The notes beneath the pieces are model-generated. The model was not told the origin of the DNA and made no database searches. It worked only from the letters and a program-made list of their open reading frames with translations. A stretch of 64,000 nt of DNA from Companilactobacillus alimentarius DSM 20249 (lineage in GTDB: Bacteria > Bacillota > Bacilli > Lactobacillales > Lactobacillaceae), in NCBI RefSeq assembly GCF_002849895.1, contig NZ_CP018867.1, positions 1,674,001 to 1,738,000 of the forward strand, given 5' to 3'. The first letter of the stretch is position 1; each line of letters starts with the position of its first letter. This document shows, one piece after another, positions 16,320 to 60,737 of this stretch. A program made the position numbers and the translations under genes.

Positions 16320-17084
16320 TTACTCTTCAGCCGCATCAACAGCCTTAATAACAGCATTTCTGAATCCATTTTCTTCTAGTGCCGCCACACCTTTAATCGT
16401 TGAACCACCCGGTGAGGTAACTTCATCTTTCAAAGCTGATACGTTCAATTCAGATTGTTTAGCCAGTTTACCGGCACCAATAGCCATACCAATCGCAGCT
16501 TCATAAGCAAGTTGACGATTCAAACCATGCTTAACACCGGCATCACTCAAAGCTTCAATAAATACATCAAGAAAGGCTGGTGAACATCCAGCAACAGTTC
16601 CCAAAATACCAAGCTGATCTTCTGGTACCTCTACGATTTGTCCTGTATATCCCATAATGGAAGCGACTTTCTTTTTATCAGCAGCGGTAAAATCACTTGA
16701 ATAAGTAATTCCTGTAAAACCTGCTCCTACTTTCACAGGAGTATTAGGAATAGCGTGAGCTACTTTTACTTCGCCTAGACCTTGTTTTAAGACTGAAATA
16801 GAAGCACTTCCTGTAAATGCCACAATTAACTTATCGGCAGCTATCTCTTTTAACTCACTTAGAACACTGTCTAAAGCATTTGCACCAACGGCAATAAAGA
16901 TCACTTCAGCATCTTCCAATTGCTTAACTTTCTTAACAATTTTGAAACCTAATTGATCTTCTAAAAGCTGTGCTCGATTAGAGCGGCCACCCTTTACTGT
17001 GATTTGATCTGCATCAAAACCATTCTTGATTAGACCCGTTATAACGGCTCCACCAATACTTCCAGCACCAATAAATCCAATCAT
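16320..17084 (-). CDS. proC: Pyrroline-5-carboxylate reductase
   Basis: 254 residues, slightly short of the usual 265-280. A Rossmann fold with IGFIGAGSIGGAVITGL, FIAVGANAL and a C-terminal dimerisation domain with DEVTSPGGSTIKGVAALEENGFR. It catalyses the last step of proline synthesis from P5C with NAD(P)H. No proA or proB is nearby. Ends in acidic VDAAEE. Confidence 0.92.
   Translation of the reverse strand: MIGFIGAGSIGGAVITGLIKNGFDADQITVKGGRSNRAQLLEDQLGFKIVKKVKQLEDAEVIFIAVGANALDSVLSELKEIAADKLIVAFTGSASISVLKQGLGEVKVAHAIPNTPVKVGAGFTGITYSSDFTAADKKKVASIMGYTGQIVEVPEDQLGILGTVAGCSPAFLDVFIEALSDAGVKHGLNRQLAYEAAIGMAIGAGKLAKQSELNVSALKDEVTSPGGSTIKGVAALEENGFRNAVIKAVDAAEE
17037..17046. repeat. CGTTATAACG palindrome, first of eight perfect copies
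   Basis: Perfect copies at 17037-17046, 26187-26196, 37908-37917, 40171-40180, 49849-49858, 57413-57422, 57925-57934 and 59697-59706. One-mismatch copies lie at 19980 and 55636, and a related double half-site at about 12604-12619. Two perfect copies touch intergenic DNA; the others fall in different codon phases. See finding. Confidence 0.7.
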
Positions 17085-17215
17085 AAAATCTACTCCTTTA
17101 CTAAAGTTAAATTCATTATATACGAAATTACTTTCACATTAGTAGTAATAGCTATCTCAATTAGTTTTGTATTCCTTGGATTTATTGTATCATTGTGGTC
17201 TTAGGAGGGATATTT

Positions 17216-17932
17216 ATGAATAGGTATAAGACAAGAGCAGAACTCAAAGCAGACGTAAAAAACTTATTGCAGGGGAATTGGGGAAAAGCTATCTTGCTTT
17301 ATTTAATTCCCGCGATAAGTATTATTTTCAATATCAATATTAATGGATCCAATTCATCAGGCGCTGTTCGTAATTCTATTTACTATGGTAACTGGAATTT
17401 TCTGCCCAGCTTTCTTTCATTAGGCTTGGTTTCCTTTATTATTAGCCTAATCTTTTTACTAATTTCTCTTTCGGCGACCTTTAGAGGACTTGATTGGGTT
17501 GAAGATTCAGAACTTGATTTTGAACCACTCAAGAGCAATTTTACCTACTTCCGCAGTCCTGATTGGTGGAAACTAATTTTTATTTATATTCTTATTTATA
17601 TTTTTACTATTTTATGGTCAATCCTTCTCTTTATCCCTGGAATCATCAAGAGTATGGCCTACTCACAAACATATTTTGTTTATAAAGATCTCAACGACCG
17701 TGGACTAGCTGACAATTATTCATTGACTGACTACATTACACGTAGCCGCCAATTGATGGTTGGAAATAAGGGCCGTTATTTCGTTCTACAGCTTAGTTTT
17801 ATTGGTTGGTGGTTAGTTGGCGCCATTACTTTGGGAATCGGCTATATCTGGATTCTTCCCTACTACAAATTAACTATGGCTAACTTCTATCAAGATTTAA
17901 TTTCTACAAATAATAAAAACAATATTGAATAA
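17216..17932 (+). CDS. DUF975 family membrane protein
   Basis: 238 residues. Starts MNRYKTRAELKADVKNLLQGNWGK, the DUF975 N-terminal signature, followed by about five membrane helices and the loop SRQLMVGNKGRYFVLQLSFIGWWLV-type C-terminal motif. The function is unknown. Start at ATG after TTAGGAGGGATATTT; the earlier frame start overlaps this site. Monocistronic. Confidence 0.8.
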   Translation: MNRYKTRAELKADVKNLLQGNWGKAILLYLIPAISIIFNININGSNSSGAVRNSIYYGNWNFLPSFLSLGLVSFIISLIFLLISLSATFRGLDWVEDSELDFEPLKSNFTYFRSPDWWKLIFIYILIYIFTILWSILLFIPGIIKSMAYSQTYFVYKDLNDRGLADNYSLTDYITRSRQLMVGNKGRYFVLQLSFIGWWLVGAITLGIGYIWILPYYKLTMANFYQDLISTNNKNNIE

Positions 17933-18046
17933 TCTAGTAAATCTTCGACATAATCGCTTTATTGTACAAAAATGATAAAATCACAATCATATTTTTTTTG
18001 ATTCTGTTAATATGTAGGAAACAACTAATTAGGTGGGTGACTAATT

Positions 18047-18856
18047 TTGAATAATTTTATACAAGTATTAACAATTGCTGGCTCCGATTCTGACGGAAGT
18101 GCTGGAGCACAAGCTGATCTAAAAACTTTCATGGCACGCGGTGTCTACGGAATGTCTGTTTTAACTGCTGCTGTTGCCGGTAATTCTTATGGAATCCATG
18201 ACAGCGTCAATATGTCGGCTAAATTCATCAATAGCCAAATCAATGACATTAAGGATGATTTTAAAGTTTCAGCTTTTAAAACTGGGATGCTCTCTGATTC
18301 TGAAATCATCACAACTGTCGCTAAAGCAATCGCCGATAAACCATTTGGTACTTTTGTCCTTGACCCTGTCATTATTACTAAACATGGTGCTATGCTACTT
18401 GAAAAAGAAGCTTATCAAACACTAATTGATAAACTGTTTCCTTTAGCTGATCTAATAACTCCTAATTTCTATGAAGCTAAGAAATTATCTGGTTTAGCTT
18501 TGGACAATAAAGAAGAAATTGTTAAGGCAGCACATAAATTACGCAATTTAGGTCCAAAAAATATTATGATAAAGGGTGAACATAGCGACGATTCTATCAG
18601 TGAAGTCGAAGACTACGTTCTCTTAGAAGATGGTCAATCATTTTGGATCTCTGAACCCTTCGTTAAAACCGATCATATCAATGGTACTGGTGATACTTTA
18701 TCATCATGTATCGTGGCGGAAATCGCTAAGGGTAAGAATATGGAAGATGCCATCAGAACTGCTAAAACATTTACTTACAATGCTATTAAAAATGAAATTG
18801 ATGTTGGCCATAAATATGGTCCTATTAACCATTTTATAAAGGATGATATACAATAG
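18047..18856 (+). CDS. PfkB-type pyridoxine/HMP kinase
   Basis: 269 residues. Ribokinase-like fold: TIAGSDSDGSAGAQADLKTF start, FKTGMLSD, LDPVI, ITPNFYEAKKLSG, and the anion-hole/catalytic motif INGTGDTLSS. It phosphorylates hydroxymethylpyrimidine (ThiD) and/or pyridoxine (PdxK). ThiD carries a Met or Gln in GSDxSGGAG and a Cys in the lid for PL kinase activity, so the exact substrate is open. It starts with TTG after TTAGGTGGGTG. No other thiamine genes adjoin. Confidence 0.8.
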   Translation: MNNFIQVLTIAGSDSDGSAGAQADLKTFMARGVYGMSVLTAAVAGNSYGIHDSVNMSAKFINSQINDIKDDFKVSAFKTGMLSDSEIITTVAKAIADKPFGTFVLDPVIITKHGAMLLEKEAYQTLIDKLFPLADLITPNFYEAKKLSGLALDNKEEIVKAAHKLRNLGPKNIMIKGEHSDDSISEVEDYVLLEDGQSFWISEPFVKTDHINGTGDTLSSCIVAEIAKGKNMEDAIRTAKTFTYNAIKNEIDVGHKYGPINHFIKDDIQ

Positions 18857-18885
18857 TATTTGTTAGTAAAATCGGAGGTTACTTT

Positions 18886-19827
18886 ATGGTAAGAATAACA
18901 AAAATTTCTGCCGGTATTTTATTGCTTATACTATCAATCATCTTAATGGTTAAGTCTGGATTTGAAGGCTTCATTGCGGCTCTAGTCGGTACAGGTGCCA
19001 TTGGAGGTGCAGCTGGTATTCTTATGGCAATAACTTATATTATCTCGGCTGCAATTTATATCTTCACTAATCGGACATACAGTATAGTTCCTGATATTGT
19101 CGGTTTCATCATTTTAATTCTAGGTGGTCTAATGGGACTATTTAATGCCAATATGCCTGGTGCCAGCTTTTTAAAAATTTGGGCTTGGGTCGGTATTATT
19201 ATTGGTGCAATTGATTTAATAATTGTTATCATTGATACAATTGTTAATCCCGTTCCAGAAGATGAACCAAACGACAATCAGAATCAATATAACAATGGTC
19301 AGTTCAATAACCAGATGAATCAAGGGCAATTCAATAATCAACCGAACAATTTTAATCAACAAAACTATGGCTATAATCCTTATCAAAATAACAATCAAGG
19401 ATATAATCAACCAAATCAATATCAACCTCAAAATGGACAATATAATCAACAACCAATGAATCAACCATATCGTCCTAATCAAGCGCCAAATCAATCTCAG
19501 AATTATAATAATAACCGTTATAACCAACAACAGCCGATGAATCAAAACGGACAAATGAATAACGGCTATAACAATCAACAACCATTTCCTAATCAACCAA
19601 CGAATCAAAACTTTGGTCAAACTCAAAGGAATTTCCCGCAAGGTCAACCAAATTCAAGTAATGGTCAATTTAGGAATCCTAATAACTTTAATCAACAACC
19701 ACAGAACTTCAACCCCAATAACCAAAACAGTCAAAACGGTAATGAGGGTCAATTGAATTCTTCACAACAACGAAATAATCCAAATAATTTTGGCAGACCT
19801 ACTAGAACTCGTAGTGGGCGTCATTAA
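18886..19827 (+). CDS. Membrane protein with long Q/N-rich tail
   Basis: 313 residues. Four membrane helices in the first ~118 residues (for example ISAGILLLILSIILMV and VGFIILILGGLMGLF) are followed by ~190 residues dominated by Asn, Gln, Pro, Tyr and Gly (NQ-rich repeats such as NQQP, NNQPN, QYNQ). A basic end PTRTRSGRH closes the protein. The tail is low complexity and presumably disordered, either cytoplasmic or extracellular. Function unknown; monocistronic between ribosome site ATCGGAGG and a terminator. Confidence 0.75.
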   Translation: MVRITKISAGILLLILSIILMVKSGFEGFIAALVGTGAIGGAAGILMAITYIISAAIYIFTNRTYSIVPDIVGFIILILGGLMGLFNANMPGASFLKIWAWVGIIIGAIDLIIVIIDTIVNPVPEDEPNDNQNQYNNGQFNNQMNQGQFNNQPNNFNQQNYGYNPYQNNNQGYNQPNQYQPQNGQYNQQPMNQPYRPNQAPNQSQNYNNNRYNQQQPMNQNGQMNNGYNNQQPFPNQPTNQNFGQTQRNFPQGQPNSSNGQFRNPNNFNQQPQNFNPNNQNSQNGNEGQLNSSQQRNNPNNFGRPTRTRSGRH

Positions 19828-19830
19828 GAC

Positions 19831-19874
19831 AAAATGAGCCTAGTAATCACATTTGATTGCTAGGCTCATTTTAT
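19831..19874. terminator. Intrinsic terminator (RGYAAYCA-type stem)
   Basis: Stem AAAATGAGCCTAG/CTAGGCTCATTTT with upper AATCA/TGATT, followed by a T-rich stretch. Confidence 0.85.
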
Positions 19875-19879
19875 TTTTA

Positions 19880-20263
19880 GTGTAGCAATGGAACTACAAT
19901 ATTGGTCCAAAACCATGAAATAGGTATGATAATCCCTCAGCTATACTTGATTCGTTCTATCCATTTTGTCTACATGTATCGTTATAACACCTATGCCTAT
20001 ACACTAATTTAGTCCTTTCGTAGTACATCTGTATTTTGTAAAAAAAACTTATCAATACTGATGATAAAAGCGATTTCAAAGTACTATATTTAAGTTAGGA
20101 CATTAATATATACATGCTCTCATATGATTCTTCTTATATGAGATGATAACAACAATGATAGCCCTTTTTCACAAGTCAATTTTGTTGCCTATCAAGTTAA
20201 TTAATCATATGATAAATGTGTGATTAGGATTTAAATTTATACTGTTCTAAGGAGGTTTTTACA
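19880..20263 (+). promoter_or_regulatory. cydA upstream region with cre-like site and hairpin
   Basis: 384 bases without a gene. Contents: a cre-like site TAAAAGCGATTTCA (20064-20077; 13 of 14 matches to TGWNANCGNTNWCA), a hairpin with CTCATAT/ATATGAG arms near 20118-20141, and a one-mismatch copy of CGTTATAACG (19980). The cydA ribosome site AAGGAGG ends it. No full Rex site (TTGTGAnnnnnnTCACAA) was found, only a half-like TTCACAA near 20168. Confidence 0.45.
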
Positions 20264-22716: not shown

Positions 22717-24449
22717 TGATTGATAAGCGTTTATTTCGCTTACCAGGAACAAAGAAACTACTCTTAATGCTTGCAGGATTAACTCTCTTGCAGGCATTTG
22801 TTGTCTTATTCCAAGGTAAGTATTTAGCAGAATCTTTAGTAAATTCGTGGGAACAAAAAGCGTTACAAACTATCATCACGCCGATGACACTCTTTGTGGC
22901 GGCCTTTATTTTAAGACATCTCTTCAATCTGATTAACACCAAGATTGTCGAAAGCTATGCTAGTAAAACTTCCGAAATAATTCGTGGCAAGTTATTAGAT
23001 AAAGTCTATCAGGCTGGACCCGAAATGATTTCAGACGAAGGAACCGGCAATTTGGTTACTTCATCCCTTGATGGCATTGATTTAGTTGAAAATTATTTCA
23101 AATTGATTTTTACCAAATTGATGAACATGTGCATCATTCCACCAGTTTTATTAATTTATATTTATACGCAAAATATTGCTTCAGGTATAACTTTGACGAT
23201 CATTGTGCCACTAGTTATCCTCTTCATGATTATTTTAGGCCTAGCGGCTCAAGCCAAGGCAGATTCACAGTACAAACAATATACGATTCTTTCTAATCAC
23301 TTCTTAGACGCTTTAAGAGGTTTGCCAACTCTAAAAATGTTGGGTCTAAGTAAGCGCTATGCTAAAAATATCTATACCGTCAGTGACGAATATCGCCGTC
23401 GGACAATGAATACTCTGAGAATCGCTATTTTATCGACTTTTGCCCTCGATTGGTTAACTACCTTAGGAATTGCTATTCTAGCCGTCTTCTTAGGCTTAGG
23501 ACTAATTAACAATAGTTTCCCTCTCTTCCCGGCTCTAGTTACCTTGATCTTGGCTCCAGAATATTTCCTACCACTTAGAAACTTCTCCAATGACTATCAC
23601 GCTACCTTAAATGGTAAAAATGCTTTAGCCGCTATTTTTGAAATTCTCGAACGTCCTAGTAAAGCTAAAGAGGACAAATTAGAAACCTTTGACTGGAACA
23701 AAGATTCTCAAGTCGAAGTTAAAGGTTTACAGTTCTCTTATCAAGGAACAAGCAACCATGAGGTCAGTTTGGATATTGACCAACTGAAGCTCAAAGGCTA
23801 TCAAAAGATTGGCGTGATTGGAAAATCTGGCTCCGGTAAAACTACTTTAATCAGAACCATCGGAGGATTCATTATACCTGACCACGCTGATATTAAAATT
23901 AATCAACAAAATTTAACTAATTTTAAACAAAGTAACTGGCAAAACAAATTAACTTTCTTACCGCAATCACCATACTTATTTGCGGGCTCAATTGCCGAAA
24001 ACATTGCTTTCTATCGTCCTAAAGCCTCAATGGATCAAATCATTCAAGCCGCTAATGAGGCTGGTCTAACAGAATTTATTAAAACTTTAAATGACGGATT
24101 CCAAACACAGATTGGTGAAGGTGGTCGTGGTATTTCTGGTGGTCAGCAACAACGGATCATGCTAGCACGGGCCTTCTTAGCTGATGATCGACACGTTTTG
24201 ATTTTTGACGAACCAACCGCCCATCTGGATATTGAAACTGAGTATGCCTTAAAGAAACCAATGGAGAAACTATTTCAAAACCATTTGGTTATTTTTGCAA
24301 CACACCGACTACATTGGATCAAAGAAATGGATTACGTCATCGTTATGAATAACGGTAAAATTGCTGAACAAGGCACTCCTGACGAGCTTAGCCAGCATAA
24401 CGGTGCTTTCTTTCAATTAATTAGTAATATGAGAGGTGAACAAATTTGA
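22716..24449 (+). CDS. cydD: Thiol/heme ABC exporter subunit CydD
   Basis: 577 residues. A six-helix ABC exporter domain is followed by a nucleotide-binding domain with Walker A GKSGSGKTT, signature ISGGQQQRIMLARAF and Walker B VLIFDEPTAHLD. With CydC it exports reductant or handles heme for cytochrome bd assembly. The frame is open further upstream, but the ATG overlapping the cydB stop is the natural start. In Bacillus naming this gene is cydC. Confidence 0.9.
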   Translation: MIDKRLFRLPGTKKLLLMLAGLTLLQAFVVLFQGKYLAESLVNSWEQKALQTIITPMTLFVAAFILRHLFNLINTKIVESYASKTSEIIRGKLLDKVYQAGPEMISDEGTGNLVTSSLDGIDLVENYFKLIFTKLMNMCIIPPVLLIYIYTQNIASGITLTIIVPLVILFMIILGLAAQAKADSQYKQYTILSNHFLDALRGLPTLKMLGLSKRYAKNIYTVSDEYRRRTMNTLRIAILSTFALDWLTTLGIAILAVFLGLGLINNSFPLFPALVTLILAPEYFLPLRNFSNDYHATLNGKNALAAIFEILERPSKAKEDKLETFDWNKDSQVEVKGLQFSYQGTSNHEVSLDIDQLKLKGYQKIGVIGKSGSGKTTLIRTIGGFIIPDHADIKINQQNLTNFKQSNWQNKLTFLPQSPYLFAGSIAENIAFYRPKASMDQIIQAANEAGLTEFIKTLNDGFQTQIGEGGRGISGGQQQRIMLARAFLADDRHVLIFDEPTAHLDIETEYALKKPMEKLFQNHLVIFATHRLHWIKEMDYVIVMNNGKIAEQGTPDELSQHNGAFFQLISNMRGEQI

Positions 24450-26185
24450 ACTTCTTTAAAACTTTCAAACACGATACTTGGGTCAAACCTTATATCAAAC
24501 AATACAAGGGCCTTCTCATCACAGCACTATTCTTAGGATTGATGACTTCCTTTTGTGCTGCAGCCTTAATGTTCACCTCTGGCTATACAATTGATAAAGC
24601 TGCCACTCATCCAGTCAACATTCTGCTGATTTACGTACCGATTCTTTTAACAAGAGCTTTTGGTATTGGTCGACCAGTTTTTAAATACACTGAGCGCCTT
24701 AAGAGCCATAACTGGGTCTTACGAGTCACTTCTGATCTGAGAACTAGACTCTATAAAACTTTGGAAAGTGACGCTTCATTCTTTAACGAACATCACAAAA
24801 CTGGTGACATTATGGGACTCTTATCCGAGGATATCAGTCACTTACAAAATCTATATTTAAGAACTATTTTTCCGGCCGTAATTGCTTATTTACTGACAAT
24901 TATTGCCTCAGTCGCCTTAGGAATTTTTAATCCATCCTTTGGTTTCTTCGTTTTCCTACTACTCTTTATTGAAGTCTTCTTAGTCCCACTTTTCTCGGTT
25001 ACAATTGAAAGTGCTCGAAGAGCCTATCAAAAACAAGTCAAAAGCGACCTTTATGTTCAACTCACCGACAATATTTTAGGTGTTGATGATTGGATCATTT
25101 CTGGAAGAAAAACCGATTTTCAAAATTTGACCGCCGCAAATATTCAAAATCTCGATCACTCGAAGAATAAATCGAAAGCCTTCAGACGTAATCGTGACTT
25201 TGCTCTACAATTCTTTTTCGCTGCAATCGTAGTTTGTTTCCTAATTTTCACCAATCTAACTATGACTGGTAATCAAGCTCAGGCTAACTTTGTTTCTGCC
25301 GTTGTTTTAGCTATTTTTCCACTATCAGATGCCATTATTCCTGTTAGTCAGGGATTTGAAGAATGGCCTTTATATAAAGATTCAATTAATCGGCTCAATA
25401 CACTCCAACCAGTCAAAAGTAACCTACCAAAACAAGTTGACTTAAAACCAGCTGATTTTCAGCAATTAGATCTCCAACATGTTAGTTTCGAATATGATAC
25501 TGATTCTCCAATCCTTATTAAGGACTTTTCACAGACTATCACTCGCGGAGAAAAGCTGGCCCTTTTAGGTCCTAGTGGCATTGGTAAAACAACTATTTTA
25601 CAACTGATCTTAGGTGATTTGATTCCTCAAAAGGGTACGATTGAAATCAATAACCTAAATGTTCAACAAATTCAAACTAGTCGTGAAAAAATTTTCTCAG
25701 TCTTAAATCAAAAACCATTTCTTTTTAATACTACTTTGATGAATAACGTTCGTTTAGGAAACGAAAAACGTTCCGACGCAGAAGTTAAACAGGCCTTAGA
25801 ACGTGTGGGACTAAAACCATTAGTTGAAACGCTACCTGATAAGTACAATACCCTCGTTGGTGAAAATGGCTCCCGTTTCTCCGGCGGTGAACAAGAGCGG
25901 ATTGCTTTAGCTCGAATATTACTGCAAGACGCTCCTATCGTCTTATTGGATGAACCTACTGTCGGTCTGGATCCTATTACCGAAAATGACCTCTTGGAAA
26001 CTATTTTTAACGTGTTAAAAGATAAAACAATCATTTGGGTAACCCATCATTTGCAAGGTGTCAAACACGTCGACAAAATCGTCTTCATTAATAACGAAGA
26101 AATCGAAATGCAAGGGTCGCCTCAAGAATTGTATAAAACTAATCAACATTTCAAGGAACTTTATAAAATGGATCAAGGATTATAA
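24446..26185 (+). CDS. cydC: Thiol/heme ABC exporter subunit CydC
   Basis: 579 residues. ABC exporter with N-terminal six helices (LMFTSGYTIDKAATHP is the CydC-specific segment), Walker A GPSGIGKTT, signature FSGGEQERIALARILL and Walker B IVLLDEPTVGLD. Starts with TTG after GAGAGGTG and overlaps the cydD stop by 4 bases. Last gene of the operon. In Bacillus naming this is cydD. Confidence 0.9.
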   Translation: MNFFKTFKHDTWVKPYIKQYKGLLITALFLGLMTSFCAAALMFTSGYTIDKAATHPVNILLIYVPILLTRAFGIGRPVFKYTERLKSHNWVLRVTSDLRTRLYKTLESDASFFNEHHKTGDIMGLLSEDISHLQNLYLRTIFPAVIAYLLTIIASVALGIFNPSFGFFVFLLLFIEVFLVPLFSVTIESARRAYQKQVKSDLYVQLTDNILGVDDWIISGRKTDFQNLTAANIQNLDHSKNKSKAFRRNRDFALQFFFAAIVVCFLIFTNLTMTGNQAQANFVSAVVLAIFPLSDAIIPVSQGFEEWPLYKDSINRLNTLQPVKSNLPKQVDLKPADFQQLDLQHVSFEYDTDSPILIKDFSQTITRGEKLALLGPSGIGKTTILQLILGDLIPQKGTIEINNLNVQQIQTSREKIFSVLNQKPFLFNTTLMNNVRLGNEKRSDAEVKQALERVGLKPLVETLPDKYNTLVGENGSRFSGGEQERIALARILLQDAPIVLLDEPTVGLDPITENDLLETIFNVLKDKTIIWVTHHLQGVKHVDKIVFINNEEIEMQGSPQELYKTNQHFKELYKMDQGL

Positions 26186-26200
26186 TCGTTATAACGTTAC

Positions 26201-37748: not shown

Positions 37749-38921
37749 TTACTTAATAATTCTTTTCACACCGACATCATTTTTAAATAGTTTACTCAAA
37801 ATCGTAATAATTATAATAGATAAAACAGATACAAACACAATTGTAAAGATTGTTCCAGTGAACTGTAAGCCTAATAGTTTCAACCCACCACCGTAAAACA
37901 AGCCATTCGTTATAACGGTACTATTCACTGATTTGGTGGCAAATAATCCCACTGAAAGTGAACCAATAATTCCGCCGACTCCGTGACATCCAAATATATC
38001 TAGATAATCATTCAAATGCAATTTATACTTCAAATAATTCATAAAATAAAAACTACCAATGGCCGTTATTATACCAATAATAAAACTACCAAAAACTGTC
38101 ACATATCCTGCTCCTGGGGTAATGCCGACTAAGCCACAAATACTCCCCGTACAGATTCCACTAATGCTTACCTTCGATTTAAATATATCTTCCAAAACAA
38201 CCCAAGTCATCAAAGCCGAACAAGCTGCTACTGTCGTGGTAAAGAATGCGTTGATAGCTTGCGTATTCAATCGTAAAGCACTGCCAGCATTAAACCCATA
38301 CCAGCCAATCCATAACAAAACCGTACCCATCAAAATCCACATCGAATTCCCCTTTGCCTGTTCGTTGTTGTATTCATAGGGTTTTCGTAAAGTAATTGCT
38401 AAAATCATTGCCGTTATTCCTGCATCAATATGAATCACCGTTCCCCCGGCAAAATCTAGTACGCCTAATTTTGCTAAGAAACCGCTGGCTGACCAGACAG
38501 TATGTGCTAATGGATAATAAATTAGTAAAGACCAACAAACGACAAATAATATAATAAATTTAATTCTAGCTCGACTAGCCACTGCTCCTAAGAACAATGC
38601 TGGCGTCAAAATCGCAAACATCATTTGAAACAGAAGATAAATTGAGTTTGGTAAACCTGTTGTTCCATAAGTAGACGATAAGTCTATACCATTTAGGAAT
38701 AAATGCTTAAAATTCCCAATTATTCCTAAAAAATTACCTTCAAAAGAAACTGAAAATCCAACTACTATCCACAATAGTCCTGCTAAGCCAAACATCAGAA
38801 AGCTATTGAAAAGAATCCGATTAACATCTTTCTGTGGTACGAAACCACTGTAAAATACGGCAATCCCTGGAACCATTATCCAGACCAATATAATTGCAAC
38901 AATCATAAAATTTAAGTTCAT
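37749..38921 (-). CDS. amt: Ammonium transporter (Amt/MEP/Rh)
   Basis: 390 residues, eleven membrane helices. Amt features: FYSGFVPQKDVNRILFNSF, the twin-His pore region (DFAGGTVIHIDAG and the later GCHGVGGIIG), and GWYGFNAGSAL. It moves ammonium across the membrane. Unusually no glnK (PII) gene lies next to it. The ATG at 38921 is preferred to the upstream GTG. Confidence 0.9.
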   Translation of the reverse strand: MNLNFMIVAIILVWIMVPGIAVFYSGFVPQKDVNRILFNSFLMFGLAGLLWIVVGFSVSFEGNFLGIIGNFKHLFLNGIDLSSTYGTTGLPNSIYLLFQMMFAILTPALFLGAVASRARIKFIILFVVCWSLLIYYPLAHTVWSASGFLAKLGVLDFAGGTVIHIDAGITAMILAITLRKPYEYNNEQAKGNSMWILMGTVLLWIGWYGFNAGSALRLNTQAINAFFTTTVAACSALMTWVVLEDIFKSKVSISGICTGSICGLVGITPGAGYVTVFGSFIIGIITAIGSFYFMNYLKYKLHLNDYLDIFGCHGVGGIIGSLSVGLFATKSVNSTVITNGLFYGGGLKLLGLQFTGTIFTIVFVSVLSIIIITILSKLFKNDVGVKRIIK

Positions 38922-39103
38922 TCTTATCACACTCTTTGTTTTTGATAGTTTTCTCTCTATAGTTTCAGTATTTTAGCCCTATCAATATTTCATGTATACC
39001 AATTGCACTTCAATTCGAGTGTTAAAATTTCTAATTACCATTTGAACAATTATAATAAAGTCATAATATAAAAGGATTTGTTTGATTTAAAAGGAGTCAA
39101 ATA

Positions 39104-41128
39104 ATGATGGGAAAGAAAAAATTATCATTATCTACTTTAGGTATGTTGATTACTCTTGGTATTGTTTACGGCGATATTGGCACCTCGCCACTTTATGTTA
39201 TGAATGCAATTATTAATGATGCTGGTTCTATAGATCAAGCTAAGCCTGAATACATCCTTGGCAGCGTCTCGTTGATTTTTTGGACCTTAATGCTCATTAC
39301 TACTATCAAATATGTCTTGATAGCTATGAAAGCTGACAATAATAACGAAGGTGGGATTTTTGCGCTCTACGCCTTAGTACGCTCCAAGGGGAAGTGGTTG
39401 ATCATACCAGCCTTAATTGGAGGCTCTGCCCTTTTAGCTGATGGAACCCTTACACCGGCAGTGACTGTCACCTCAGCCATTGAGGGCGTCAAAGGACAGC
39501 GTTTCGGCCAATTTATTTTTCCTAACGAACAACTAATTGTCTTAATTATCGTGACGATTATTCTATTAGTAGTTTTTATTATTCAAAAATTTGGTACCGA
39601 AAGAATTGGTCGCTCATTTGGACCTATCATGCTGATTTGGTTTAGCTTTATCGGCATTGCTGGATTATTGAATCTTCTTAATGATCCTAATGTGTTATTG
39701 GCAATTTCACCCGTCTACGCTTTAAAAGTTTTATTCAGTCCGGTAAATAAGGTTGGTATTTTCATTCTAGGCAGCGTCTTTTTGGCAACCACTGGTGCTG
39801 AAGCCTTATATTCTGATATGGGACAAGTTGGTAAGCATAATATCTACGCTACTTGGCCATTCGTTTATGCAATGCTTATGTTGAATTACTTTGGTCAAGC
39901 TGCTTGGGTCATTAACAATTATCAAAATGAACACTACGCTCACGTTTTCGGTCTTAATCCCTTTTATGAAATGCTACCAGGCAATTTTAAAATTTTTGCC
40001 ATCGTTATCGCTACATTAGCCGCTATCATCGCCTCGCAAGCCTTGATAACCGGATCTTTTACTCTAGTTGAGGAAGCCATCGGTCTCAAAATATTGCCAC
40101 GTTTAAGAGTTAAATTTCCAGGTAAATTTGAAAGCCAGCTTTACATTGGCACTATCAACTGGCTATTATGCGTTATAACGGTTAGTGTAGTTTGGGGCTT
40201 TGGCACTTCCGAGCATATGGAAGCCGCTTATGGACTGGCGATCACCTTAACCATGCTAATGACAACCATTCTCTTGCATCAATTTTTAATTATGAAAAAA
40301 CACCGCTACTTTGCTAATATTTTTATGATCCTATTCTTAGCTTTGGAAGGTTTATTCCTATTGTCCAGTCTAATTAAATTCATTCATGGCGGTTACATCA
40401 CCGTTATCATAACTATGGCAATCCTCTTTGTAATGATTATTTGGTACTTTGGCAATAAGCGCCGTGATGCTTATCTAGCTGAAAGTGAAAATGTTTCATT
40501 GCTTGACTATATTTCACAATTGGAAAAATTAAGTGCCGACTCTACTATTCCTACTTACGCCACTAACTTAGTCTATATGGTCAAATTAGGTGAGGATTAT
40601 ACTATTAAACGTTCCATCATCTATTCAATTTTGGACCAAGACCCCAAACGTGCTAAAGTTTATTGGTTCATTACCGTTAATCAGACCAGCGCACCTTACG
40701 AATGCAACTATACTATCGACATGATGCATACCAGAAATGTCGTAAATGTTCATTTAAATCTTGGTTTCAAGAAATCCCAACACGTTAATATTTACATTAG
40801 ACAAATCATCAATTCTTTAATTACTAATCACGTTATTGATGATCAAACTCCAACGTATTCAATGGTTCAAAAACGTCATGTTGGCTCTTTCAAATTCATT
40901 ATTCAAAATCAACAATTTCAAGACCTTGGCGCTCAGGAACAGATGAATGGCTTTGATCATCTATTAATCGGAGGTAGATTGCTTTTGCAAAGAATAACCA
41001 TCTCACCTTCGTTATGGTATGGTTTAGAGTTCAGTGATGTTGTCGAAGAAAAGGTTCCACTATTCTTAGGTAATCAAACTGATGAATATTTGACTCAAAA
41101 AGAAATTAAAAACGACGTTAAGAAATAA
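39104..41128 (+). CDS. kup: KUP family potassium transporter
   Basis: 674 residues. Twelve membrane helices in the first ~450 residues with [25 protein letters not shown] and [16 protein letters not shown] signatures, then a ~220-residue cytoplasmic domain. It imports K+ with H+. Start ATG after AAAAGGAG. A CGTTATAACG palindrome lies inside the gene (40171). Confidence 0.93.
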
Positions 41129-49474: not shown

Positions 49475-50551
49475 TTATTCAGCAAAGTAAGGTTCAATAA
49501 TTTTCAATTTCCTATTATCCAAATCCACTCTAGCTTTCAGGCCATATGGCAAAGCAGTTCGAGGATAAGCATGACCAAAGTTCAGATTAGTCATCAATGG
49601 CGTCTTAGTATCCTCTGTCTCTTCTTTTAAGATTTGGCAGTATTCATCATAATGAACCTCGTTTTGTGGCTTACCAGTGATAATAGCTACGACTGCTTGC
49701 AAGATTCCTTTGGATTTCAACTTCTTCAACATCCCACAATATTCTTCTGGCGTAGGCTTCTCTTCACTAGTTTCCAAGAATAAGATTTTACCCTCAAACT
49801 CTTTGGCATCAGGAATCAAATGATATTTTTCATTAATCTTCGGTTCATCGTTATAACGCTTATCGGTCAGCAAGCTATTGAGACTATCTAGACAACCACC
49901 CAATAGTTGACCTTCAACAATTCCCGATCCACGTTGAACTTGATATCCTTTAGTTTCTGGATGACTAACACGAGGCGTATCTAAGGCTGCCTTTGAAAAA
50001 TCTGTCCGTTCTTCGTACCAGACAGGGCTACTTGAAATTTCTGTAGTAGCTGGATTTTGAAAATAATGTTTCAAAGTCTTTTTAGTATATGGAAGTAATT
50101 CAGTGTCTAATTCGGCTAAATCATTGATAACATTAGGACCGTAATAAGTTGTTAATCCTAATTGGTACAACATTAAATGATTAACGGTCGTATCCGAAAA
50201 ACCAGTAAACAATTTAGGATGTTGTTGTACATTTTTAACAAATTCTGGATCATTTAACAAATAAGGTGCCAAGCGATATGTATCTTCCCCACCGATCGCA
50301 CAAAAGATTCCTTTAATCTGATTATCTGCAAAAGCCTGCTTCAAATCATCTGCACGTTTTTCGGGATGATTTTTTATGAACTCGATTCCTTTCAAACTAT
50401 TAGGCATAAATTCTGGAATTAAACCTAATTCTTCAATCCGTTTCCTACCCTGATTCAATTCATGTTTGGCAAACTCTTCCCCCAACACGCCCGCGGAAAG
50501 ACTGACAATTGCAACATGATCTCCTTTTTTTAAAGCTTGTGGTTTAATCAT
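49475..50551 (-). CDS. S66-family LD-carboxypeptidase / MccF-like peptidase
   Basis: 358 residues. Peptidase S66: nucleophile Ser in FTGFSDTT, Glu in LFLETSEEKPTPEE and His in NFGHAYPRTALPYG. These enzymes cleave the terminal D-Ala from murein tetrapeptides or inactivate microcin C-type compounds. No signal peptide, so cytoplasmic. It overlaps the ClC gene by 8 bases, forming an operon with it. Confidence 0.85.
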   Translation of the reverse strand: MIKPQALKKGDHVAIVSLSAGVLGEEFAKHELNQGRKRIEELGLIPEFMPNSLKGIEFIKNHPEKRADDLKQAFADNQIKGIFCAIGGEDTYRLAPYLLNDPEFVKNVQQHPKLFTGFSDTTVNHLMLYQLGLTTYYGPNVINDLAELDTELLPYTKKTLKHYFQNPATTEISSSPVWYEERTDFSKAALDTPRVSHPETKGYQVQRGSGIVEGQLLGGCLDSLNSLLTDKRYNDEPKINEKYHLIPDAKEFEGKILFLETSEEKPTPEEYCGMLKKLKSKGILQAVVAIITGKPQNEVHYDEYCQILKEETEDTKTPLMTNLNFGHAYPRTALPYGLKARVDLDNRKLKIIEPYFAE

Positions 50552-53430: not shown

Positions 53431-53530
53431 GTCAACTACTAATTCTCTTTTTAGTCTGCAAACTACTAAATGGGACTTATTATTTACTGAATTATGTTCA
53501 GTAGATTTAATCCTGCGACAAAAATTATTA
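53431..53530 (-). pseudogene. Fossil of tnpB 3' end and right end
   Basis: GTCAACTAC matches the boundary of the intact element (41280-41288). TTTTTAGTCTGCAA and GGACTTATTATTTACTGA-like stretches match 41414-41452. The minus-strand frame ends NLLNIIQ-stop, like a TnpB C terminus. The hairpin and most of tnpB are gone. Confidence 0.65.
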
Positions 53531-53562
53531 GAGCTCATAAGATAAACATTTTAAAATAAAAA

Positions 53563-53632
53563 AGATCCCTCCTATGATCTAGTTAATGAAATATAGAATT
53601 CATCAATTAGACATAGAAGGGTTCTTTAAATT
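53563..53632. terminator. Long imperfect inverted repeat, terminator-like
   Basis: Outer arms AAAGATCCCTCCTATG/CATAGAAGGGTTCTTT and inner TTAATGA/TCATCAA-type pairing, about 30 pairs with mismatches. An A6 run on the left gives a T-run for minus-strand transcripts from the Gfo/Idh operon. Confidence 0.5.
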
Positions 53633-53683
53633 CTAATAAAAAATTTAAGCCATTATAATCACTTCTACAAAGTTTTATACAAT

Positions 53684-53699
53684 ATGTTTCACATGGAAC
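53684..53699. promoter_or_regulatory. parS-like ParB-binding site
   Basis: TGTTTCACATGGAACA matches the consensus TGTTTCACGTGAAACA at 14 of 16 positions. It sits inside a longer palindrome with perfect 11-base outer arms (TACAATATGTT/AACATATTGTA). Intergenic, about 9 kb from dnaA. Confidence 0.75.
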
Positions 53700-53753
53700 A
53701 TATTGTACAAAGACATATGTTTGCCACTATATATTGTGGTTAATTTCAAGCTA

Positions 53754-54662: not shown

Positions 54663-54673
54663 TATTTCACTCC

Positions 54674-57208
54674 TTAATTACGATTAAACAGTTGTAAATG
54701 CTTCTTGAGATACTGACCAGTTATACTATTAGAATTATTTGCAACCTCTTTGGGTGTACCTGTTGCAATAATTTTACCACCATTGATCCCACCTTCAGGA
54801 CCTAAGTCATTAATATAATCAGCATTACTGATAATATCCAAATCGTGCTCAATTACAATGATTGTCGCATGCTTCTTAAGTAATTTATTGAACACATCAA
54901 GTAGAACACCTACATCTTTAGGATGCAGTCCCACACTAGGTTCATCAAAAATAAATAATTGATCCTTTTGACTCCGCTTCATGTAAGTGACCAATTTCAA
55001 CCGTTGAGCTTCACCACCGGACAAGGTTGGGGTACTTTCTCCTAACTTCAAATAACTCAAGCCAATACTTATCAAAACGTCTAAGGTATTTTTGATCCGT
55101 GGCTCGTCTTGGAAAAATTCAGCAGCTTCTTTAACTGACATGTCTAAAATTTCAGCAATATTTTTCCCGTGCCAAGTAATATCTAAAATTTCCTTCTTAT
55201 AACGATTGCCATGGCAGACTGGACAGGTTTGAACCATATCTGGCAAGTATTGAATATCCAAAGTTATGACGCCTGTTCCTCCACAATTTGGGCAAGCACC
55301 TTGCTTATTGTTATATGAGAAATAAGTTGGCGTAAATTTCTTAGCTTTAGCTACATCCGTTTGCGCAAAAATCTTTCTGAGATGGTCTAAGATTTTGGTA
55401 TACGTCCCCACTGTCGAACGAACATTCTTACCAATTGGCACTGAATCTACGGTGACAATGTTCTTAATTCCGGCACTATCAACAGCTTTAACAAATTTTG
55501 GTAAAGGTTCATTCGCTATTTGGTCACGCATAGCCGGCAACAAACTATCAAAAATCAATGTCGTTTTACCAGAACCAGACATCCCTGAAACAATATTAAG
55601 CGACTCTTTACTGAATTTAGCCGTTAAATCATGAATGTTATAACGATCGCCAATTTCGACACTAATACTTCCCTTTTGAAAAGGCTTTATCTGTTGATGC
55701 TTAATAATATCCGCTTTCCCCACTAAATAAGGTTGAATTACTGAATCCTTATTCTGCTTAATTTCATCAACTGTGCCTTGAGTGATTACTCGACCACCAT
55801 CTTCACCAGAATCAGGCCCAATCTCAATCACATAATCGGCTGCGGCAATGATACTAGTATCATGATCGACTACAATTAAGGAATTTCCTAATTGAACTAA
55901 TTCTCGTAATATTTTAATCAAGCCCGCTACATTAGCCGCATGTAATCCTACACTTGGTTCATCTAAAACGTAGAGTACTCCGGTCATTTGATTTCTAATA
56001 GTTCGAGCCAACTGAATTCTTTGTAATTCACCTGTAGATAAGGTATTTCCCGCACGTGAAATGGATAAATAGTTAAGTCCCAAATCAACAATGGGTGACA
56101 GTAAATCCAATAATTCATTAGTCAAGTTTTTTCCTAAGGACTTCATATCTTCTGGCAACCAAGCCATAATTTTTTGGCAGAAGTCATGTAGTTCAGAAAT
56201 GGTAAACTGACTGACTTGGGCAATGTTCTTTCCTACTAATTCGTTTGAAAACAATTTAGGATTGAACCGGCTTCCGTGACAAGCTGGACAAATTTTTTCG
56301 GAATAAAATCTTTCCAAGCGAGCTAATGTGTTCTCATTTTTGGTACTCTTCAAACTATTCTTAACTGCCATAACTGCATTTTCATACAAGGCATTTAATC
56401 TAAATGAGCGTCCAGTCTTTGTCGGTACAAGAATCTCTTTCTTTTGTTCCTTACCGTTAACGACGATCTCTTTTTCCTCAGCTGTTAAATCTTTAAATGG
56501 AATATTAGTTCTGACGCCTAGTTCTCTGATGATTTCTTTTTGCAGAGTCCGCCCGGGCAAATTCCATGAACGAATGGCACCTTCATCAATTGTCAAAGTC
56601 TTATCGGGGATAATCTTGTCGATTTCAATTTCTTTCAAAAAGCCGGTACCCTGACATGTTGGACAAGCTCCATCTGAATTAAAGGCGAAATCTTCCGCAC
56701 TAAAGGCCATGAATTTAACTCCGCAAACTGGACAGGTCATCATTCCCATAGCCTCATCAGAAGTCGGTAGATCCATTACTTCAGATATCTTCAAAGTTGG
56801 ATCAAGTCGATGTCCATTAGGACATTTTACAGAAGCCAAGCGAGAAAACATCAAACGTAAAATATTCAGACTTTCTGTCATTGTCCCCACTGTCGAGCGA
56901 ACACCTGGAACCGTCGGACGTTGACGCAGAGCGATAGTTGAAGGTAGATTCTTGATATTCTTAACATCGGAACGCCCCATTTGAGTGATTCTTCTTCTAG
57001 TGTAAGTAGACAATGCATTAAGATACTTTCTAGCTCCCTCGGCATAGATTGTATCCATTGCCAATGAGGATTTCCCAGAACCTGAGACACCCGTAATTGC
57101 CACAAATGAATTCAATGGTATATCAACGTTAATATTCTTGAGATTATTAGCGTTGGCTCCAATGACCTCAATATCATCTGGTATGTAATTTTTATGTCTA
57201 ATCGTCAT
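54674..57208 (-). CDS. UvrA2-type ABC ATPase (UvrA paralog)
   Basis: 844 residues, about 100 shorter than UvrA. Two ABC domains: Walker A GVSGSGKSSLAMDT and GMSGSGKTTLIFDS, signatures LSTGELQRIQLA and LSGGEAQRLKLV, zinc modules CPACHGSRF and CPNCGGTG...CPVCHGNRY. The UvrB-binding region is reduced, as in UvrA2 proteins linked to DNA-damaging drug tolerance. A true UvrA should be elsewhere. Confidence 0.85.
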   Translation of the reverse strand: MTIRHKNYIPDDIEVIGANANNLKNINVDIPLNSFVAITGVSGSGKSSLAMDTIYAEGARKYLNALSTYTRRRITQMGRSDVKNIKNLPSTIALRQRPTVPGVRSTVGTMTESLNILRLMFSRLASVKCPNGHRLDPTLKISEVMDLPTSDEAMGMMTCPVCGVKFMAFSAEDFAFNSDGACPTCQGTGFLKEIEIDKIIPDKTLTIDEGAIRSWNLPGRTLQKEIIRELGVRTNIPFKDLTAEEKEIVVNGKEQKKEILVPTKTGRSFRLNALYENAVMAVKNSLKSTKNENTLARLERFYSEKICPACHGSRFNPKLFSNELVGKNIAQVSQFTISELHDFCQKIMAWLPEDMKSLGKNLTNELLDLLSPIVDLGLNYLSISRAGNTLSTGELQRIQLARTIRNQMTGVLYVLDEPSVGLHAANVAGLIKILRELVQLGNSLIVVDHDTSIIAAADYVIEIGPDSGEDGGRVITQGTVDEIKQNKDSVIQPYLVGKADIIKHQQIKPFQKGSISVEIGDRYNIHDLTAKFSKESLNIVSGMSGSGKTTLIFDSLLPAMRDQIANEPLPKFVKAVDSAGIKNIVTVDSVPIGKNVRSTVGTYTKILDHLRKIFAQTDVAKAKKFTPTYFSYNNKQGACPNCGGTGVITLDIQYLPDMVQTCPVCHGNRYKKEILDITWHGKNIAEILDMSVKEAAEFFQDEPRIKNTLDVLISIGLSYLKLGESTPTLSGGEAQRLKLVTYMKRSQKDQLFIFDEPSVGLHPKDVGVLLDVFNKLLKKHATIIVIEHDLDIISNADYINDLGPEGGINGGKIIATGTPKEVANNSNSITGQYLKKHLQLFNRN

Positions 57209-57343
57209 AGTTTCTCCCTTCCATTAATAATTTGATTATAACATTGAGAGAAACTTTTCTAATTGTTCTAGTCCTCTGGTTTATAACGGCAAGATTTCTT
57301 TATTTATCAATCGATAAATTTGGGCGGAAATTTTTTTTAAAAG

Positions 57344-57379
57344 AAAAGGGTACGTGTCGCTTGCGACACTTACCCTTTA
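57344..57379. terminator. Intrinsic terminator after mnmG
   Basis: Stem AAAGGGTA-GTGTCGC/GCGACAC-TACCCTTT with a short loop. It serves the mnmE-mnmG operon and insulates it from uvrA2. Confidence 0.85.
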
Positions 57380-57423
57380 TATATATTTAGCAATTTTCAT
57401 TTCATTGCATAACGTTATAACGA

Positions 57424-59331
57424 TCAGTTGCTGGCAGGAACTTTAGCAATCTTTCCTTGTTCGATATATACACTCAAGATACCGATATCAGCCGGATTAA
57501 CCCCACTGATACGACTTGCTTGAGCAATCGTTTCTGGATTGATCTTGCTTAATTTTTGAACGGCTTCTGTAGCTAAACTATCAACCTTTGTGTAGTCAAG
57601 ACGAGCGGGAATCTTTTTAGATTCCATCTTCTTTAGACGTTCAATTTGAAATTCTTCTTTTTTAATGTAGCCTGCATACTTAGTAGCAATTTCTACTTGT
57701 TCAGCAACTCGATTATCAACTGGAAAATCAGCTTCACCGACTATATCAATAATATCTTGATAATGTACTTCTGGTCTTCTTAAGAAGTGATCAGCTAAGA
57801 TTCCATCCTTCAATGGCTTAAGATTATGAGCCTTCAAAAATGGTAAAGCCATCTTAGGAGTGATCATCTTACGTGAGAGGCGATCTAATTCCATTTTGAT
57901 AGTTTGACGCTTTTCTTTAAAGGCGTTATAACGGTCATCACTGATTAAACCTAAGGCATAGCCCTTGTCAGTCAAACGAAGGTCAGCATTGTCATGACGC
58001 AATATCAAACGATATTCAGCACGACTAGTCAACAAACGATATGGTTCGTTAGTTCCCTTAGTTACAAGGTCATCAATCAAAACTCCGATATAAGCTTCGT
58101 TACGGTGCAAGATGAATGGATCTTTTCCTTGGGCACGCAAAGCAGCATTGATACCAGCCATAATTCCTTGACCAGCAGCTTCTTCATAACCAGATGTTCC
58201 ATTCATTTGACCTGCAGTAAAGAGGTTTTTGACAACCTTTGTTTCAAGATTTAACTTCAATTGCCATGGTTCGATAACATCGTATTCAATGGCATATCCT
58301 GGACGCATCAATTTAGCTTTTTGCAATCCAGCAACTGAATGAAGCATCTTCAATTGAATTTCCTCGGGCATAGACGTTGAGAAATCTCCAACATAATACT
58401 CTTGTGTATCTTTACCTTCTGGCTCCAAGAAGATTTGATGTCTTGGCTTATCAGCGAAACGAACAATCTTATCTTCGATTGATGGGCAATATCTTGGTCC
58501 AACACCCTTGATAACTCCTGAGAACATTGGAGCTCGGTTGAGATTATCACGAATAATCTTGTGTGTATCAGCATTGGTATAAGTCATCCAACAAGAGATC
58601 TGGTGTTGTAAGTAACTTGAATCTGGTGTTTCAAATGAGAAATGATTAGGTTCTTTATCTCCGGGTTGTTCGATTGTTTGATCAAAATCAATTGTATCTT
58701 TGTTAACACGTGGAGGTGTTCCAGTCTTAAATCTCGTTAATTTGAAACCATGCTTCTCTAAATCTTCAGATAGCTTGATTGAAGGAATACTGTTGTTAGG
58801 ACCTGATGAATAAGTCAATTCACCAATAATGATCTTACCTCTGGATGATGTACCAGCCGTCAAAACAACGCTCTTAGCGTGATATCTAGCCCCAGTAGCT
58901 GTAACGATACCTTTGCAGACACCATCTTCCACAATCAATTTTTCAGCAATACCTTGACGAAGAGTCAAATTAGGCTCTTTTTCCAAAGTATTCTTCATTT
59001 CACGATGATACATATTCTTATCGGCTTGGGCCCGAAGCGCTCTAACGGCAGGTCCTTTACCTGTATTAAGCATTCTCATTTGAATGTATGTCTTGTCGAT
59101 ATTGCGGCCCATTTCGCCACCTAAAGCATCGATTTCTCTAACAACGATTCCCTTAGCCGGTCCACCGACTGAAGGATTACATGGCATGAAAGCTACCATA
59201 TCCAAATTGATAGTAATTAATAATGTTTTTTCACCCATCCGAGCAGCAGCCAAAGCAGCTTCTGAACCCGCATGTCCGGCGCCTACAACGATAACGTCAT
59301 AAGTCTCTGAATCAAACTCTTTTACTTCCAT
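57424..59331 (-). CDS. mnmG: tRNA uridine-34 carboxymethylaminomethyl synthase subunit MnmG
   Basis: 635 residues. FAD motif [21 protein letters not shown], catalytic-region [44 protein letters not shown] and the C-terminal helical domain with [11 protein letters not shown]. With MnmE it modifies U34 of tRNAs. Two CGTTATAACG palindromes touch its 3' end (57413, 57925). Follows mnmE by 17 bases. Confidence 0.95.
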
Positions 59332-59348
59332 CTATCTTTTCACCTTTA

Positions 59349-60737
59349 CTATTTTCCTAAACAAAATTGTGAGAATAATTGCGTGATCAGTTCATCAGGA
59401 TAACTTTCTCCCGTAATTTCTCCTAGAGTGTTCCAACAAGCCGTCATATCGATTTGAACGAGGTCGATAGGCATTCCTGCTTCAATTCCTGAAATTACGT
59501 CATTGAGGCTATTTTTGGCCTTACGGAGCAATCCAGCTTGACGAGCACTCGTGATAATGACATTGCTGCTGTTGTCTTCAATTCCTGAATTAAAGATTTT
59601 ACCAATGGTTTGTTTAATTGTCTCAATCCCATCATTCTTGATTGCCGAAGTTTGTAGAACAATATCGTCAGCTTTCAATTGAACGACTGAATTAGGCGTT
59701 ATAACGGGCATCAAATCATTTTTATTAAAGATCACAATTCGTCTTTTGTCGGCGGTCGCATCTAATAATTCAAGATCGTCTTCTTCAAGCTCACGACTAG
59801 AATCAAGGACTAGAATTGCCAAATCAGCACCCTTTAAAGCAGCCTTGGAACGTTCTACACCGATTTTTTCAACTTTATCTTCTGTATCACGAATCCCAGC
59901 GGTATCAATCAATTTAAGTGGCACGCCATCAATATTGACGTATTGTTCAACTACATCACGTGTTGTACCGGCAACGTCAGTTACGATTGCTTTATCTTCA
60001 TCCAAGAGACGATTCAACAGACTAGATTTACCAACATTTGGTTTACCAACAATTGCTGTTGCTAATCCATGTTGTAAAATTTCACCACTATCAGCGGTCT
60101 TTAATAACTGATCAATGCTTGAACTAACAGTTTTAGCTTTCTCTAAAAGCATTTTAGTCGTCATCTGGTCGGTATCGTATTCGGGATAGTCAATATTTAC
60201 TTCAACTTGTGCTAAGGAATCAAGAATCTCTTGACGCAAGTTACCAATCAAATGGTGTAAATTACCATCCAGTTGATTAACGGCTACTTGCATAGCCTTA
60301 TCAGTTTTTGCACGAATCAGATCCATAACTGATTCTGCTTGAGTTAAATCAATTCGACCATTCAAGAATGCCCGTTTAGTAAATTCACCTGGTTCAGCCA
60401 TTCTGGCTCCGGAACCAATCAAAAGTTGGAGTACTTTATTAGTTGCCACTATACCCCCATGGGTATTTATTTCGATGACATCTTCGCGGGTAAATGTCTT
60501 TGGAGCACGCATTACAGACACCATAACCTCATCGACTAAAGATCCATCGCTTGGATCAATAATGTGACCATAATTTATAGTATGGCTAGCGACTTTATCT
60601 AGATCGCGTCCTTTAAAAACCTTTTTAGCAACCGCAACTGCCTGATCTCCTGACAAACGAACAATGGAGATGGCACCTTCCCCTGGAGGCGTTGAAATGG
60701 CTGCTATCGTATCATATTCAGTTACTGCACTTGGCAT
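59349..60737 (-). CDS. mnmE: tRNA modification GTPase MnmE
   Basis: 462 residues from the chosen ATG. N-terminal folate-binding domain ([21 protein letters not shown]), GTPase with P-loop [26 protein letters not shown] and NKND, C-terminal FCLGK with the catalytic Cys. The frame extends 23 codons upstream, but GGGAGCTATTTT fixes the start. Confidence 0.95.

Follow-up and report, generated by a model that had tools for sequence, protein, structure and literature searches.

A ten-base palindrome arrayed around the replication origin of Companilactobacillus alimentarius and its relatives

Why should a ten-base palindrome occur eight times in 64 kb of a bacterial chromosome? The question was raised by a stretch of 64,000 nucleotides from the food-associated bacterium Companilactobacillus alimentarius DSM 20249 (contig NZ_CP018867.1, positions 1,674,001 to 1,738,000), referred to here as the window and numbered from its first letter, in which an initial annotation had noticed the palindrome CGTTATAACG. 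All eight perfect copies that it had reported were present (Table 1), and seven of its start positions were exact, the copy placed at 57925 starting at 57924. The single-mismatch copies reported at 19980 and 55636 were also real, and at least two more were found (19516 and 29235). CGTTATAACG was the commonest 10-mer of the window, and its eight copies compared with 0.03 expected from dinucleotide shuffles, none of 100 of which reached eight; the earlier statement that the number lies far above the base-composition expectation was therefore borne out. Six of the eight copies lay in open reading frames (ORFs) of at least 100 amino acids, where synonymous-codon shuffling of the 53 ORFs of the window (2000 trials) gave a mean of 0.22 and a maximum of 2, in agreement with the earlier claim that protein conservation does not explain the copies. 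Differing codon phases and two copies just past gene ends had also been described, and we found both V-I-T and R-Y-N frames, with copies 2 and 6 one base past stop codons.

The right end of the window corresponds to oriC, since dnaA starts at 62821, and the copies in the whole genome (G000) were concentrated around this gene. The genome contained 31 copies, compared with four of a reversed control pattern. Of these 31, three lay within 6 kb of dnaA. The 100-kb range held 17 copies where 2.7 were expected, the 500-kb range 27 where 13.3 were expected, and in none of 10^6 uniform placements were 31 copies as close to dnaA. Because the window itself had been picked for its copies, the test was rerun without its eight copies; the remaining 23 were equaled in closeness by 31 of 10^6 placements. 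The density of copies against distance from oriC, a check proposed in the initial annotation, thus fell away from dnaA. The ∼1.33 Mb beyond 500 kb held four copies, which is near chance because the scaled Markov and codon-shuffle rates predict ∼1 to 4.5 there. A second, weak match to a DnaA domain was seen in a 304-amino-acid frame far from oriC (G000:C1:896688-897062).

CGTTATAACG was searched for in 120 relatives, in which the reversed control occurred 0–9 times per genome. The 36 Companilactobacillus genomes contained 1–60 copies each (control 0–8), and the other 84 genomes contained 0–4, except for G044 (8), G048 (12), and G072 (7). All 36 Companilactobacillus genomes were also searched with the ParB_N profile. 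The arrangement noc-soj-parB was found in six of them (G001, G007, G016, G030, G032, and G035), and these had 3–11 copies (median 7.5). In the other 30, noc was absent from the rsmG-soj locus, and 29 of these, hereafter the motif-rich genomes, had 15–60 copies (median 28). The gap between rsmG and soj measured 896–1016 bp with noc and 36–664 bp without it (134 bp in G000). Two noc-less genomes had a second ParB_N match that was not a noc at the locus, one in the repeated contig end of G022 and one, weak and far from parB, in G006. Against the Noc model, the G001 protein reached 300.2 bits, slightly short of the cut-off of 315 (the ParB of the window scored 244.5), and was called Noc because of its synteny, its equivalents of Q173, K179, and R201, and the Noc-binding sites (NBSs) in its genome. 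The Noc-site core TTCCCGGGAA was present in all six noc-bearing genomes (1–3 each) and in 6 of the 30 noc-less genomes, with no occurrence in G000. The 14-mer ATTTCCCGGGAAAT occurred twice in the origin stretch of G001, and no NBS within three mismatches was found in the 204-kb origin stretch of G000, about 20 kb of which was unread. In a midpoint-rooted tree of ParB, Soj, and RsmG, the 29 motif-rich genomes formed one clade and the six noc-bearing genomes another, each with a support of 1.0.

The origin bias recurred in the three other motif-rich genomes mapped: 0, 4, and 0 of 10^6 uniform placements were as close to dnaA as the copies of G006 (24 copies), G022 (28 of 33), and G029 (42 of the 47 listed), respectively. 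For G022, five copies near the contig end were dropped, as they repeat the contig start; its contig C1 appears to repeat its start from about position 2516673 to its end (2551839), with parB and the five copies occurring twice at near-identical spacing. Among the 10-mer palindromes of the origin stretches, CGTTATAACG was by far the most over-represented relative to a third-order Markov model in G000 (17 versus 0.14) and G006 (12 versus 0.28); in G001 it did not stand out (3 versus 0.24). All four motif-rich genomes that were mapped therefore have an array centered on dnaA, and one noc-bearing genome shows the same centering more weakly. An excess on the left arm was discarded as a general rule: the ratio was 24:7 in G000, but 15:9 in G006, 16:12 in G022, and 20:22 in G029.

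We also analyzed where the copies lie relative to genes. In G000, 22 of the 31 copies were inside ORFs of at least 100 amino acids and nine were intergenic. CGTTATAACG can be read as R-Y-N or V-I-T, the third frame holding a stop, and the V-I-T frame accounted for 15 of the 22 in-ORF copies of the whole genome, with R-Y-N in the other seven. The codon-choice probability is 0.008 for GTT-ATA-ACG (V-I-T) versus 0.07 for CGT-TAT-AAC (R-Y-N), about ninefold lower, in a comparison that covers codon choice. Because V-I-T copies predominate despite their less likely codons, selection seems to act on the DNA rather than on the peptide. Across all the DNA that was fetched, 20 of the 140 unique copies started 0–10 bases past a stop codon, compared with 1.3% of random positions; some of these 20 are orthologous, with one gene end recurring in five genomes. 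The flanks showed a preference for T at +2 and A at +4, which may partly reflect the stop codons beside the site. One copy lies at the center of a 32-base perfect palindrome, AATAGGGTAACCGTTATAACGGTTACCCTATT, at the 3' end of a 118-amino-acid ORF (L026:5950-5981; G000:C1:1659950-1659981).

Conservation was assessed at the origin-side copies of G000 that could be aligned. Identical copies were found at 2 of 9 places in G006, 3 of 8 in G031, 4 of 7 in G029, 2 of 6 in G022, 0 of 7 in G001, and 0 of 2 in G035, whereas the numbers expected for any 10-mer were 0.75, 1.11, 0.92, 0.86, 0.49, and 0.12. In the same order of genomes, a stricter control, CGnnnnnnCG, was kept at rates of 0.05, 0.18, 0.21, 0.20, 0.05, and 0.04. 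Conservation in the motif-rich clade thus exceeds both controls but is modest, with much turnover, a pattern resembling that of binding sites whose number is maintained while their positions change. The initial annotation had named two findings that would speak against a functional site, a genomic frequency equal to that of codon-aware shuffles and a lack of conserved copies among close relatives, and neither was found in full: the frequency in the window was far above codon-aware controls, and the copies were partly conserved and partly turning over. By every control run, the array is real, origin-centered, and under selection.

On balance, we lean toward the interpretation that a sequence-specific DNA-binding protein recognizes CGTTATAACG, and that an array of about 30 such sites is maintained as a mark of the origin-proximal part of the chromosome. 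A putative protein, X, would occupy these sites. The origin region replicates and segregates first, so that DNA bound by X could serve the cell as a positional signal. By analogy with Noc, RacA, and SlmA sites, X would most likely anchor this region at the membrane or keep division away from it. More speculatively, the site may have begun as a regulatory element and then spread around the origin. A more specific scenario, which we put forward tentatively, is that Companilactobacillus has an undescribed origin-marking system whose protein lies outside the ParB/Noc family and is possibly a membrane-anchored XRE regulator; its operator, CGTTATAACG, would have multiplied into genes and past stop codons around oriC in the Noc-less lineage and would now do Noc-like or RacA-like work.

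Several observations weigh against an origin-marking array of this kind. Many copies are unconserved (two of nine identical in G006, none of seven in G001). The preference for ORFs is not uniform across noc-less genomes, for in samples that were mostly origin stretches, 2 of 15 copies were intergenic in G006, 3 of 15 in G029, 5 of 6 in G022, and 5 of 8 in G031. G034, a reduced genome of 1.5 Mb without noc, has a single copy, in an ORF, and in noc-bearing G001 an origin bias is already seen among nine copies (1906 of 10^6 placements as close). Since the 29 and the six genomes form two clades, the association with noc represents a single split and is not statistically independent; the tree indicates one evolutionary split rather than many independent losses. 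The main result against a simple replacement of Noc came from G048, which belongs to another genus and has 12 copies (control 1), seven of them on the 267-kb contig that carries dnaA, soj, and parB (binomial P 6e-4, with a rounded genome size). Beside rsmG on this origin contig is a gene 44% identical to the G001 Noc. The co-occurrence in G048 of noc and a concentration of the palindrome on the origin contig means that the array is not just a substitute for Noc; origin-side CGTTATAACG either predates the noc-less Companilactobacillus clade or is not confined to it. Noc replacement as a strict rule is weakened by G034 and G048 alike. In the two remaining genomes with raised counts, the contig carrying parB held two of the eight copies in G044 (P 0.04), which has no noc at the locus, and one of the seven in G072. 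Further points on the same side are that no binding protein for CGTTATAACG was found among the RocS, ParB, near-origin, and XRE candidates described below, and that the copies lying ahead of XRE-type and secreted-protein genes suggest ordinary gene regulation.

The last point leads to another explanation, which we consider possible but doubtful: CGTTATAACG could be the operator of a transcription factor with the half-site TAACG, acting on XRE-type regulators, secreted proteins, and other genes, with the origin copies being extra, weak, or titrating. An exact copy was found within 330 bp upstream of 15 of 36 distinct XRE-type genes, 11 of them with 80–102 bp from site to start codon, and CGTTATA or its complement was found upstream of 21 of the 36, compared with 1.0 expected. 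These genes were gathered by similarity to one with a noticed upstream copy and include several orthologues, and the 15 cases are therefore not independent; in a further 28 XRE-type genes, partly the same as the first set, an exact copy occurred within 150 bp in only two. The contexts in the noc-bearing clade, which cover 35 of its 44 copies, also favor an operator. Intergenic copies numbered 21 of 35 there versus 24 of 75 pooled from five noc-less genomes (Fisher P 0.007, the samples being unmatched), and copies 73–122 bp before a start codon numbered 13 of 35 versus 5 of 75. The genes downstream of copies in this clade include XRE-type, secreted-protein, and lipoprotein genes (named by eye), and two copies lie just past an Hsp20-like gene (also by eye). 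Such upstream copies suggest that the protein that recognizes the array, or its ancestor, is a transcription regulator. An operator does not, however, account for the 22 of 31 G000 copies inside ORFs or for the others directly past stop codons, and a regulon leaves unexplained why the copies thin out so sharply away from dnaA. For the regulon that the initial annotation had offered as one possibility, there are signs in relatives, upstream of XRE-type and secreted-protein genes (named by eye), alongside the mostly in-ORF copies of G000. In two noc-bearing species, a cluster of secreted-protein and lipoprotein genes (named by eye) contains four copies each, mostly in spacers, like a small regulon (L209:7392-13310 and L210:6053-18152).

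If the array and the upstream copies share one protein, a membrane-anchored XRE protein would be a weak candidate for X: it would unite the two, but the only link consists of the upstream copies, which are missing from many such genes. The XRE protein has an HTH_3 domain followed by hydrophobic stretches (the latter by eye). The 134-amino-acid XRE protein of L015 was rejected as a universal binder, as it had close relatives in only 3 of the 36 genomes, XRE-type matches being present in all 36. Autoregulation of XRE-type genes was likewise rejected as a rule, no exact upstream copy being found in 21 of 36 and 26 of 28 genes of the two overlapping sets. Nearer the start codon of XRE-type genes there is a second, variable inverted-repeat element, which by eye looks like their own operator. 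Small XRE-type helix-turn-helix (HTH) proteins with hydrophobic C-terminal segments form a large family (L015:9515-9919, loci L161-L190 and L229-L247; 2–15 matches per genome), and their upstream regions often contain TAACG-type half-sites (by eye). Several promoters showed, by eye, an 11-bp spacing of these half-sites, but the count was small, at three pairs in 36 regions.

Other candidate binders were also considered. ParB is not an obvious binder, because both ParB and parS are kept intact: an exact parS lies at G000:C1:1746042, outside the window and 9 kb beyond dnaA, exact parS sites are also present in the G001 and G006 stretches, and the equivalents of R173 and G201 are kept, by motif position, in the ParB of all 36 genomes. 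These two residues are described as absolutely conserved in ParB in the excerpt available of PMC7383237. A ParB with changed specificity was ruled out by the retained exact parS and the two unchanged specificity residues. A RocS-like (DUF536) binder was rejected too: a search of 20 genomes detected PF04394 in seven, and it was absent from 8 of the 10 motif-rich genomes in that set, including G000. Among the G000 origin ORFs that match 400 kb of G006 and not 400 kb of G001, a comparison of origin regions only and not of genes elsewhere, no clear DNA-binding candidate for a binder gene gained near the origin was seen by eye; a MerR-type frame at window-relative position 155625 gave only a weak match.

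It seems improbable to us that the array serves to control replication initiation, through titration or recruitment of an initiation regulator, and not division or segregation. The three copies within 6 kb of dnaA would fit such a role, and S. aureus Noc also limits initiation, according to the part of PMC5540599 that we could consult. The copies extend, however, to 500 kb on either side of dnaA, and the two clades of a single genus have different median copy numbers (28 versus 7.5). We also know of no resemblance between CGTTATAACG and the DnaA box. It is very improbable that the palindrome is a methylation or restriction target: its perfect symmetry would suit one, but ten specified bases are long for such a site and clustering at the origin would not be expected. 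Base composition, codon use, or a mobile repeat as the source is scarcely credible, being refuted by the shuffles, the Markov controls, and the low counts of the reversed pattern (0–9 per genome in the 120 relatives, four in G000), and a mobile repeat is ruled out because the flanks of the copies look unrelated by eye.

The features of the window are summarized in Table 1. Three further loci near these features were observed. A MerR-type protein with hydrophobic segments (window:11794-12528; PF13411) is encoded about 2 kb from rsmG and has relatives in both clades. A LytTR-type response regulator and a histidine kinase (by eye; window:2840-4902) adjoin the parB locus, with weak matches elsewhere in the G006 stretch and none in the G001 stretch. 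Beside mnmG is a UvrA-like protein of 844 amino acids (by eye; window:54674-57208), for which partial similarity only was found in the G006 and G001 origin stretches.

Table 1. Copies of CGTTATAACG and origin-region features in the 64-kb window (window coordinates).
Feature	Position	Strand or context	Remark
parB (spo0J)	7315..8184	-	only ParB_N match in G000; parS-type residues kept at R173/G201 equivalents
soj (parA)	8165..8941	-	PF13614
rsmG-soj junction without noc	8942..9071		noc present here in six species of the genus
rsmG (gidB)	9072..9830	-	TIGR00138
CGTTATAACG copy 1	17037..17046	inside ORF 16320-17084(-), frame V-I-T	identical at aligned place in G029, G031, G022
CGTTATAACG copy 2	26187..26196	1 base past stop of ORF 24446-26185(+)	identical at aligned place in G029, G031, G022
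CGTTATAACG copy 3	37908..37917	inside ORF 37749-38930(-), frame V-I-T	identical only in G029
CGTTATAACG copy 4	40171..40180	inside ORF 39104-41128(+), frame V-I-T	kept in 0 of 4 relatives aligning here
CGTTATAACG copy 5	49849..49858	inside ORF 49475-50551(-), frame R-Y-N	no relative aligned at site
parS-like site, weak	53685..53700	+	2 mismatches
CGTTATAACG copy 6	57413..57422	1 base past stop of mnmG (57424-59331, -)	no relative aligned at site
CGTTATAACG copy 7	57924..57933	inside mnmG, frame R-Y-N	one mismatch in G029 and G022
CGTTATAACG copy 8	59697..59706	inside mnmE (59349-60806, -), frame V-I-T	identical in G006 and G029
dnaA	62821..64000	+	cut by window end; PF00308 and TIGR00362; center of array

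How, then, does the array compare with known systems? Its layout is known, its sequence is new, and its protein is probably new as well; no description of the CGTTATAACG element was found in the literature, judged by title and mostly outside subscription papers and bioRxiv. As a short chromosome-wide DNA signal, it can be likened to SlmA sites, MatP/matS, KOPS, and Chi. However, matS sits at the terminus, whereas CGTTATAACG sites are on the origin side. KOPS and Chi show a strand bias and are not palindromes; readings as either are rejected because CGTTATAACG is its own reverse complement. Of the dispersed sites with which the initial annotation had compared the palindrome, these three are thus set aside, and the Noc sites agree in distribution only (origin-centered and palindromic). 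With ParB-parS it shares an origin-proximal palindrome and a parB in the window, but CGTTATAACG is not parS, an exact copy of which stands separately at G000:C1:1746042. RacA, a MerR-type HTH protein, has ram sites whose distribution resembles that of CGTTATAACG sites in being dense around the origin. In the available part of PMC6593407, the ram sites of B. subtilis are dense near the origin, spread over the rest of the chromosome, and centromere-like; RacA differs in that it tethers chromosomes in sporulation. The RefZ-binding motifs (RBMs) of Bacillus are near-palindromic, placed relative to oriC, and conserved in the genus, and RefZ acts through FtsZ (PMC6657595, consulted in part), but there are five such sites (two per arm and one near oriC), compared with 15–60 copies, with turnover, in the motif-rich clade. 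SlmA sites are origin-side, and S. aureus Noc has 41 sites, only one of them farther than 700 kb from the origin, as given in the excerpt of PMC5540599. As far as those excerpts go, the Noc/NBS system of Bacillus and Staphylococcus is like the array in having tens of palindromes on the origin side that are scarce near the terminus (here, 27 of 31 within 500 kb). It is unlike it in that the NBS is ATTTCCCGGGAAAT and not CGTTATAACG, and in that G000 has no noc at the usual rsmG-soj locus and one ParB_N match only. Arrays of palindromes on the origin side (Noc, RacA, RefZ, and SlmA) inform the dividing cell of the position of its chromosome. One with an unrelated sequence, abundant in a Noc-less clade and sparse in a related clade with Noc, would offer a natural experiment in the addition or replacement of such systems, and it could show how a regulatory site turns into a chromosome-wide mark. 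Because the site is short, exact, and countable, its binder can be fished directly.

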